From Struthio camelus (lineage: Eukaryota; Chordata; Aves; Struthioniformes; Struthionidae), in the NCBI RefSeq assembly GCF_040807025.1, contig NC_090968.1:1178001-1242000 (forward strand): a stretch of 64,000 nt of DNA. The letters run 5' to 3'. Positions 20,737-30,555 of the stretch are shown here, in pieces. The first letter of the stretch is position 1. Each line of letters begins with the position of its first letter. Under the pieces are notes generated by a model. The model was not told the origin of the DNA. It did not search any database and was given only the letters and a program-made list of their open reading frames with translations. The position numbers and the translations under genes are program-made.

Positions 20737-23700
20737 TTAGGAGAGGAGGTGGAGGAAGCGGGAGATTCTGCTGCTGTGGATGCGGTGTGACCCGCCTTGC
20801 TGCTGCACAGGCAGGGAGTTCGTCAGCTCCTCCTCGAGCATCTGGAGGAGAGAAAGATAAGCCGTGTCCCTCCCAGCCAGGACTCAAGAGGAGAAATGGC
20901 CTGGGGTGCACAGGGTGGGTTGGGCTGTGGCATGTCAACAAACCCGAAGAGCCGTCGCAGGGCAACTCACCTCCTTGCGGACAGCCAGCCGCTGCTTCCA
21001 CTCACTGAGCTCCATGGCGTGTTCACCGTCCAGCCGCGCCAGCTGTCTCCTCTCCTGCTCAGCCAAGAGGCGCATCTTCTCACTCTGGGAGAAGGCAAAG
21101 GGCGGGTGAGAAGAGAGATGCTCGAGGAGAGCTAGAAGGGGTGTGGGAAATGGCCCTCTGGCCCCAGTACCTGCATCTGCTCCAGTTCCCCCAGGCTCTC
21201 AGCCTGCTGCTGCTGCAACTGCTGCAGCTGCTGCATGTGCTGCTCCTGCTGCTGCTGCACCTCCACTCTCTGCCGCTTGTCCTCCTGCTGCAGGAACTGT
21301 GGTGAGGACAACCTGTGTTACATTCCCCTTCCCAGGCAGGAGAGGCAGCCCCTAACCCCATCCTTGACCACCCTTCGCATGAGTTTTCACTGTCTGTCAC
21401 TGCAAGCTGTTGCTCACAGCTTTTGGGGGTGAGGGGGCTGCAGACAATTCAACCCTCCTGCCAAAGTGTTCGGTACTTTGCTGGCAGCCCGGTTTCCACC
21501 AGCCCTGCCTGAGGCAGCCATGAGCCTGGCCAAACTGGTATTTCATGCTGGGCAACCTTGAGGGTCCTGGAGAACCAGTGGCCGGTACCTGCTTGGCTCT
21601 CTCTCTGTGCTTGGCCCCATTAACCTCCTGGATCTTCAGGTTGCCTTTGAAGAGGGCCAGGCGGGCCTTGGCGTCGCAGCGCTGGCTTTTCAGCAGCTGA
21701 GCCCGTTCTTGGGCCTGCTGGTTCCTGAGCTCCTCCAGCAAAAGGTGGTGGAAACGGTTCATCCGCTCTGTCTCCTGCAAAAGGGGCTGGAGGGTGAGCT
21801 AGGACCAGGATGAGGAGCAGGGCTGGAACGCCGGCAGCTCCCACCTCACCTTCTCGTGGCGCTTGTGGAGCTGCTGCCGCTGCAGCACGTGCTGCTCCTT
21901 CACCTGCCGCCTGAAGAGCTGGTACTTCTCCTGCAGGTGCCCTTGCTCCATGCTCCACACTCTGGACTCACGGGCTGCCGGGCAGGACCACAGCACCGAG
22001 TGGATCAGTAGCTTCATGCCATGGCCTGCCCCAGCCTCTAAACCCACCTCTTGCTCCCTTCTTCTGGCTACTTCCCACCAGCCAGAACCCCACTGCTCTT
22101 GCCCCAAGGTTCCTCCATCCTCTTCCTCCCAGCCCCAGAGCTCTTGTGGCCCAGTCCACCTCTGCGGAGGCTGTGGATCTTGCTGATGTACTCCCAGTTG
22201 ATGGACATCATCTTCTTCTTATGTTCCTGGACAACTCTCTGCAAGGATGCGTTCAGCTCCTCCTGCTGTTGCTGCAGGAACCGCTGCTCCTGCGGTGGGA
22301 AATGTGGGGGCCCTTGTCCCAAATCTCGAGGGAGACTGGCCCCAGGTGCAGCTCATCAGCTCAGGGGAACCACAGCCCAAGTCCACCACCATGAGAGCCG
22401 CCACCATGCCCTCACCTCTCTCCTGTTGCCCTTCAGCTCTTGCATCCTCCTCTCGCCATTCTTCTCCTGGAGGGACTTCAGGCGCTTGGCTTCATCACGC
22501 AGCTTCACCGTGTACTCGCACTCCTGGCGCTCCTTCAGCTGCTGATAGTGACGCTCCAAGGTCTCCACCTCCCGATCATAATACTCCTTCTTGCTCTGCT
22601 ATGCAGACACAGAGGGTCAGCACAGACCGAGGACGGCCCACAGGGAACTGTGACCCCTTACGCCAGCTCTGTGCAGACAATGCCAGCCCAGGGGACTCAC
22701 ACGTCCCTCCTACTGGATCGCACCAACAGATGTCCCCCCGTTACCGTCATCTCCTGCTCGATGTTCCGAAACATCTGCCCCCGCTGCTGGTGAAACTTCT
22801 GCTCCAGCTGGCTCTGCGCCCTCTGCTCCTCCTTCTGCAGCACCCGCAGCTCACGGAGCTCCTGGCGCCTAAAGGTTTGGGCAAGTCAAGGTGAGAAGTG
22901 GCCAAAAGTTGGCTTGATGGCACCTGCCTCTGCCAGGGCTTTAGGGGCAACCTGGTGAGGAGGCTGCACTGGATGGCTGCCTTGTAAGTGGCTAAAGGAA
23001 GGAGAAGGAGAAGCCCTAGTGCAGTGATGTGGAAGACACTTTCTCCAGTGAGCAGGATCACCAATGCCTCTTGGGTCCATCAGCTCTTAAATCAATTGTT
23101 GGCTCTGCCCCTCCATTTTCCCCATCCTCCCCCGGTCTCCTTGGGAGGGTCTTCCCAAGGAGAAGATATTGGAGAAGATCTTCCTCTCTCCTTTCCTTAA
23201 ACAACCCCCAACTGCTGGCAAGAGCAGATATGGGGCTGGGCAATGTTTTGGCTCTTTCTGTGCCCCTACACCTCACCAGGGGATGGACATGGGATGCCTG
23301 CCACCCCTCTGCTACCACAGCCACTCACCGAGCAGAACGCATCTTCTCCTCCCTCGTCTCAGCCTTGCTGACAGCCTTGGCAGTCGTCACGCTCACTTCC
23401 TCCCCGTCCACAACGAATCTGCGGGTTTTCTTTACCGTCCTTCGGAGGGAGGGAGGTTCCTGCCACCAAGAGCAATGGTTTGAGCTCAGACAACCCAGAC
23501 GACGTAAATTCCATGCTGGGCAACACAGCGCGAAGGTAGAGTTGTGGGTTTAACGCAGCGTGTTCGGTCCGTAACTGGAACATGCACCCTGTGGGCTTCT
23601 GGCTGCGTTCAAATGGGCTCTGGGAGCGATTTGAGCTACCCATTGACACAAGGCAACAAGGGCTGGCCCCGCACCCTGCTGCAAGCCAAGAAACGGGGAT

Positions 23701-29700: not shown

Positions 29701-30555
29701 CGCGGGCCCCGGGGAGCAGCACGGCGGGTTTCCTGTTGAGCTCAGCCTCTGCATCGCGGTTGTGGTGACAACAAGAGATTAAAAAACAGCCCTGTCTCAA
29801 ACTCACGGCAAAACGAAGGATGTAAACGTTCCTGCTGTGCCCGGCTCTGGGATCTCCTGCTGAAAAAAGAGGGGAGGGGACAAACCCCAACCAACCTCAT
29901 GCAGAAACACCCCAGGGAACGGTCCTTCCTGCCACCCATTTGCACCCTGGAAAGGGACCGTTCCCGATTGCCCTGTGCCCGAGGAGCTGCTTGACCCCGG
30001 GAAAGCGGTGGCTCTTTCGGTGCCAGCGAACAGGACTAAGGCAGCCGCCGGCTGCATCCCAAGGCCACGGGGGTCCCCAGCGTCCCCATCGTGTGCCCTC
30101 TCCCTCCCAGCAAAGGGAGCCACTAAAAACCCAAGGCAATTTGGAGGCTTTCCAGCTTATCACAGCGCGTGCTGGATGCTGTTCGATGACCGTCACTTAT
30201 AAGGCTATAAGGTGGCACTGACCACGGCTGCAGGGGAGAAAAAAGGAAGCATTTAGGGTGCCATTTCCAAAACAAAGTCCTGCAGGCATTTTCTGAAGCT
30301 CTTTCCCAGGAGAACGGGCTTGATCCGTGGCCGGACTGCCGGGAAGCCTGCGCCGAGCTGCGATGCCGGCGGCACCGGGCCGCTCGCCCTTCGCTCCCCG
30401 TCGCCTACCTTGAAGACCTTGCCGAAGGCGCCGTCGCCCAACTCGCCCAGCACCAGCCACGCGTCCTCAGGGTTGACGTCCCGCCTGACATGCTGGTAGC
30501 GCCTTGGCTTCTTCTTCTCCGTGCCCAAGCGGAAAAGTCGCCGGAAGAAAGCCAT
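20737..30555 (-). CDS. SLK/LOK-family Ser/Thr kinase, third paralog (SLK-like)
   Basis: This is a complete Ste20-group kinase, 18 coding exons and 1461 codons. Exons in transcript order: 30409-30555, 29017-29181, 28464-28512, 28123-28272, 27806-27878, 27120-27314, 26715-26796, 26474-26587, 24150-26336, 23329-23459, 22745-22868, 22416-22598, 22160-22289, 21850-21974, 21589-21774, 21171-21296, 20971-21084, 20737-20841. The N-terminus [16 protein letters not shown] and motifs such as [12 protein letters not shown] and [10 protein letters not shown] are closer to human SLK than STK10. The catalytic residues look intact: glycine loop G40-G45, K62, E78, HRD 152-154, N159, DFG 172-174, GTPYW 191-195. 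Residues 326-1054 are one acidic low-complexity exon. Residues 1055-1461 hold the conserved [17 protein letters not shown] entry and the SLK/LOK coiled coil, ending [10 protein letters not shown] (SLK has RISKFYP). SLK and STK10 phosphorylate ERM proteins; a similar role here is inference. The exon 9 donor (CAG|GTGAGG) and acceptor are the least certain sites. Confidence 0.93.
24150..26336 (-). other. Giant central exon of the SLK-like kinase (residues 326-1054)
   Basis: This single 2187-nt exon encodes a Glu/Asp/Ser/Pro/Gly-rich region with no recognisable fold. It contains two copies of a basic motif, P-K-[KR]-[AP]-S-[DE]-[LF]-L-K-x-x-R-R-[KR]-S, at residues 409-426 (26034-26087) and 435-452 (25956-26009). 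Near its end is KTVSF at residues 995-999 (24315-24329), which fits the RVxF PP1-docking pattern. SLK also has one large acidic exon at this place, so the architecture is ancestral although the sequence is not obviously alignable. Confidence 0.8.
29230..29365. other. CpG-dense palindromic tract in kinase intron 1
   Basis: The tract is a run of overlapping ACGT/CGTG motifs (for example GTGACGTGATACGTGGCGTC), a perfect 14-bp palindrome CCTATCGCGATAGG at 29315-29328, then an AT-rich near palindrome ATATTATGATATTATATCAT. Base composition differs sharply from the surrounding intron. No gene or known repeat was recognised. Confidence 0.5.

Follow-up and report, generated by a model that had tools for sequence, protein, structure and literature searches.

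The window, the whole 64,000-nucleotide stretch of Struthio camelus DNA that was analysed, carries on its minus strand, at positions 20737..30555, a kinase gene of the SLK/STK10 family, hereafter called the third gene since SLK and STK10 themselves lie elsewhere in the genome. The exons were re-derived from the sequence by reading the minus strand, with splice sites chosen by hand and with the help of similarity to SLK and STK10. Read from 30555 to 20737 the model comprises 4383 nt or 1461 codons including the stop (1460 aa plus stop), with consistent phases, a single stop located at its end and GT-AG boundaries in 17 of 17 introns. This independent re-derivation reproduced the coordinates and the count of an 18-exon frame closing at 1461 codons which had been proposed in an earlier note on this DNA. 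The features of the model are given below.

20737..30555 (-): third SLK/STK10-family kinase gene, 18 coding exons, 1460 aa (spliced model; Pfam)
30409..30555 (-): exon 1, start codon, N-terminus and glycine-rich loop
29017..29181 (-): exon 2, catalytic lysine and alpha-C region; 165 nt in 3/3 paralogs
28464..28512 (-): exon 3, 49 nt in 3/3 paralogs
28123..28272 (-): exon 4, catalytic loop HRDVKAGN
27806..27878 (-): exon 5, DFG and activation segment
27120..27314 (-): exon 6, APE motif
26715..26796 (-): exon 7, kinase C-lobe
26474..26587 (-): exon 8, end of the kinase domain and acidic linker
24150..26336 (-): exon 9, 2187 nt, 729-residue unconserved central region
23329..23459 (-): exon 10, start of the tail, with motif
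22745..22868 (-): exon 11, coiled-coil tail
22416..22595 (-): exon 12, first PKK stretch
22290..22415 (-): intron 12, 126 bp, site of the missing 93-nt exon of SLK/STK10
22160..22289 (-): exon 13, equivalent of SLK exon 14
21850..21974 (-): exon 14, coiled-coil tail
21589..21774 (-): exon 15, second PKK stretch
21171..21296 (-): exon 16, glutamine-rich coiled coil
20971..21084 (-): exon 17, coiled-coil tail
20737..20841 (-): exon 18, C-terminus and stop

The catalytic elements of the predicted protein are complete (GDGAFG loop, AAAKV lysine, HRDVKAGN, DFG and APE). Pfam analysis gave a Pkinase match of 219 bits and a match to PKK (PF12474) of 105 bits in two stretches, where the cut-off is 25; two other kinase-related models also matched, one of them under its cut-off. 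With Pkinase, PKK and the catalytic motifs all present, the earlier description of a complete kinase gene with catalytic residues and an SLK/LOK tail was confirmed. When the kinase domain was compared with the PDB, the best eight distinct sequences were SLK or STK10 (478-514 bits) and the next match was STK4 (263 bits), while a PDB search with tail residues 1-292 (of 406) gave no match at E up to 0.01. Exon lengths are equal in all three genes for 13 of the 18 exons of the third gene. The third gene is an intact member of the vertebrate SLK/STK10 (GCK-V, STE20) kinase family. A single polyA-type hexamer was found within 2.2 kb downstream of it, at a distance of 1.7 kb.

The gene had been placed between NCAPH and ARID5A, and both neighbors were recovered by Pfam. 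NCAPH, recognized by a Cnd2 domain at 18246-18383 (42.8 bits), flanks the gene on one side. The opposite flank holds ARID5A, whose ARID domain scored 47.5 bits when two exons were joined; the first exon alone scored below the Pfam cut-off and the second alone had no match. Further out, a receptor stretch with a 7tm domain was found beyond NCAPH (Pfam, translated reading) and a stretch with one C2 domain beyond ARID5A; among the eight flanking pieces submitted to Pfam four had no match (two NCAPH-like, one ARID5A-like and one KANSL3-like). We take the further flanks to be TACR1-like beyond NCAPH and KANSL3-like and FER1L5-like beyond ARID5A, the human gene order presumably being NCAPH-NEURL3-ARID5A-KANSL3-FER1L5-LMAN2L-CNNM4, so that the interval now examined would be the position of human NEURL3. 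At E up to 0.001 the contig that carries the window (C27), the NCAPH-ARID5A interval included, yielded no Neuralized domain, and a Neuralized gene at this position may be absent in S. camelus or too diverged for the model. Open stretches at window coordinates of about -14088 to -11333, near the TACR1-like gene, were read as what we presume to be the endonuclease and reverse transcriptase of a CR1-type LINE.

SLK and STK10 in the same genome

A search with the tail covered the S. camelus genome (1.45 Gb, 262 contigs) and returned 20 matches at three loci, namely the third gene, C7 near 14.56 Mb and C13 near 8.17 Mb. A search for the PKK family, in which 14 candidates were scored, gave six matches, two per gene, in the same three genes only; the count of three genes in S. 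camelus rests on these tail and PKK domain searches. SLK was modelled on C7 (1257 aa, 19 exons) and STK10 on C13 (971 aa, 19 exons), the latter protein being provisional at the exon 8 donor. The kinase domains of these two genes were 94.2% identical to human SLK (PDB 8bem) and 91.2% identical to human STK10 (PDB 2j7t), respectively. As both SLK and STK10 are present separately, the earlier statement that the gene is neither of them was upheld, and a third gene is not refuted by a lack of either one elsewhere in the genome.

The kinase domain of the third protein was 74.1% identical to S. camelus SLK and 72.1% to S. camelus STK10 (S. camelus SLK vs S. camelus STK10, 78.8%), and 69-74% identical to all four SLK/STK10 sequences of S. 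camelus and human (human SLK 74%, human STK10 69%). Over the tail it shared 51% of residues with S. camelus SLK (202/397) and 42% with STK10 (167/397), the SLK and STK10 tails being 63.5% identical to each other. Most exons have the same lengths and phases as in SLK, the gene architecture is the same as that of STK10, and the C-terminus SSRISRF resembles QSRISKF of SLK. The third gene differs from both in lying on a different chromosome, in its central exon (2187 nt vs 1422 nt in SLK and 543 nt in STK10) and in lacking a 93-nt exon; it also differs from SLK in the activation segment, where T replaces D ahead of the conserved SFIGTPYW. STK4 (MST1), the outgroup, shares a STE20-group kinase domain that is 47% identical to that of the third protein but is far more distant from it than SLK or STK10, and we take it to lack a PKK tail. 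Drosophila Slik, as described, likewise has an N-terminal kinase, an unconserved center and a conserved coiled-coil tail (PMC12000455).

The central exon and the missing tail exon

Over its 2187 nt exon 9 has an open frame of its own. Stops number 27 and 36 in the remaining sense frames and between 11 and 18 in each antisense frame, and none of 5000 first-order Markov sequences of the same make-up was open (0/5000). An alternative, longer exon 9 extending to 23890 was discarded, its phase being incompatible with exon 10. Compared with S. camelus SLK and STK10, the 729-aa central region gave a best match of E 2.3, and a scan of viral contigs with exon 9 gave 12 pattern matches and no relatives. 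Two similar basic stretches of 14 residues lie close together in exon 9 (25960-26085), and from their sequence these could be a pair of phosphorylation or membrane-binding motifs. A scan of genome contigs with exon 6 gave 134 pattern matches and eight distant kinase loci (34-63% identity) in records labelled bacterial. One of these records, a Lachnospiraceae MAG, has a kinase stretch 53% identical to exon 6, which is odd for a bacterium and perhaps represents eukaryotic contamination of a rumen assembly.

The 93-nt exon of SLK and STK10 lies between the positions of tail exons 12 and 13 of the third gene, and nothing similar to it was found in the 126-bp intron 12. Exon 13 of human SLK is a cassette at which alone the two coding isoforms differ (PMC9132324). 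Cells of the cardiac mesoderm repress this exon, and QKI binds close to it (PMC9122611). We infer that this human exon corresponds to the 93-nt exon of S. camelus, because the latter is exon 13 of 19 in the S. camelus SLK model. Since the third gene has no such exon, it is predicted that the short-tail form is always made.

Divergence, paralogous blocks and origin

A tree was built from six kinase domains, including one distant outgroup (STK4), on an alignment of 293 columns. The third gene formed a long branch (0.33 changes per site) near the SLK/STK10 split. The branching order among the three genes had little backing, the grouping of the third gene with STK10 having support of 52/0, and alternative trees joining the third gene to both SLKs (p 0.46) or both SLKs to both STK10s (p 0.45) fitted equally well; even the SLK pair of S. 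camelus and human had support of only 73/75. In AU tests the pairing of the third gene with S. camelus SLK (p 0.026) and with S. camelus STK10 (p 0.006) was rejected, while its pairing with human SLK was not rejected at 0.05 (p 0.073). The earlier proposal of an extra paralog was not refuted by these placements. Where the SLKs of S. camelus and human differ, the third gene matched S. camelus at five sites and human at five; where the STK10s differ, it matched S. camelus at 11 and human at two (293 columns in each case).

For the kinase domain, pN/pS was 0.16/0.945 between the third gene and SLK, 0.173/0.672 between the third gene and STK10 and 0.137/0.883 between SLK and STK10; for the tail the corresponding values were 0.303/1.007, 0.349/0.705 and 0.212/0.932. 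These values indicate synonymous sites that are saturated, or nearly so, in a conserved protein, and a distance of the third gene somewhat above the SLK-STK10 distance.

To see what else the three loci share, the whole genome was searched for three further families. CNNM gave three hits (C7 at 15.44 Mb and 17.28 Mb, C27 at 1.298 Mb), with the C27 gene about 89 kb from the third kinase and one C7 gene 2.7 Mb from SLK. Lectin_leg-like (LMAN) genes were found on C13 (9.69 Mb), on C27 (1.29 Mb) and on the look-alike contigs C40 and C41, the C27 gene lying about 81 kb from the third kinase and the C13 gene 1.5 Mb from STK10. The two best Neuralized hits fell at 14.96 Mb on C7, about 350 kb away from SLK, and at 8.28 Mb on C13, about 110 kb away from STK10; others were on C18 and C204. 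CNNM therefore joins C27 to C7, Lectin_leg-like joins C27 to C13 and Neuralized joins C7 to C13 only. As no Neuralized gene was found on C27, each pair of blocks is tied by just one further family. These pairwise ties are the pattern left by block duplication, on few families. We assume that the genes are CNNM2, LMAN2, NEURL1 and so on, and that the matching human blocks are 2q11, 10q24 and 5q35. On C40 and C41, both large contigs, kinase and lectin hits run in parallel at an offset of about 19.1-19.5 Mb, which fits a weakly differentiated sex-chromosome pair and would suit a ratite-like bird.

We conclude, at a probability of roughly 0.86, that the third gene is a member of the SLK/STK10 family which most likely represents a third 2R ohnolog rather than a recent duplicate. 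We take SLK and STK10 to be 2R ohnologs of each other, and the two early vertebrate genome duplications would leave a third ohnolog beside them. Between the two origins which the earlier note had offered, an ancestral paralog and a lineage-specific duplicate, the ancestral paralog is favored by how far the gene has diverged, by the equal counts of sites shared with the two SLKs and by the paralogous blocks.

A duplicate of SLK or STK10 specific to this lineage, which evolved fast after the bird-mammal split, is improbable. Fast-evolving duplicates can appear older than they are, and both the long branch and the greater matching of S. camelus STK10 than of human STK10 (11 to 2) would suit such an origin; but the AU test rejects both pairings within S. 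camelus, the sites shared with the SLKs of the two species are balanced, and a recent duplication of one gene leaves the adjacent CNNM and LMAN relatives unexplained. It is also rather unlikely that the gene is an old paralog which is now silent or dying here with its frame intact, a reading that is compatible with the ohnolog origin. The loss of one family exon and the long unconserved exon 9 count for it, whereas the 1460 codons without stop or frameshift, the 17 introns with intact splice sites and the complete catalytic residues speak against it; moreover the lost exon is a multiple of three, and a human SLK coding isoform without exon 13 exists (PMC9132324). A misjudged SLK or STK10, or a duplicate made by the assembly, was already refuted as the identity of the gene and is barely conceivable: for most exons the structure is that of both genes, but separate genes exist on C7 and C13, and these resemble human SLK and STK10 far more closely than the third gene does.

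Predicted function and significance

The coiled-coil tail of Slik is described as binding and shaping membranes and its kinase as activating Moesin; Slik has two named human orthologues, SLK and LOK, and all three kinases act on ERM proteins as well as on cell shape and membrane protrusions (PMC12000455). By analogy, a third protein with a complete catalytic core and a PKK tail most likely does work of the Slik/SLK/LOK type. It would be a serine/threonine kinase that associates with membranes, is anchored at the cell cortex through its C-terminal coiled coils and phosphorylates ERM-type cytoskeletal linkers as SLK and STK10 do; we regard this ERM-kinase function as reasonably likely, and it may be exerted in particular tissues. 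With its long divergent central exon and without the 31-residue tail exon, this kinase would have a regulation of its own.

The literature searches, which stopped short of most subscription papers and of vertebrate annotation databases, met no third SLK/STK10 paralog, although the gene is possibly already auto-annotated in bird genomes under a '-like' name. The kind of kinase is already known; the third family member is new to the literature searched. We know of no third SLK/STK10-type gene in human, and the gene of S. camelus therefore adds a missing relative to a small, well-studied family.

It is somewhat more likely than not that vertebrates began with at least three SLK-type kinases, of which this lineage kept the third in working order with its own regulation (a fixed short-tail form and an extra-long center) and mammals lost it. 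In the third gene, nature would provide a tail that is permanently without exon 13. If this paralog is ancient, mammals retain in SLK and LOK two genes of what was once a larger set, and knock-down effects in bird models could be masked or altered by an additional kinase. If mammals did lose the third kinase, work on mammalian SLK and LOK misses one branch of the family.
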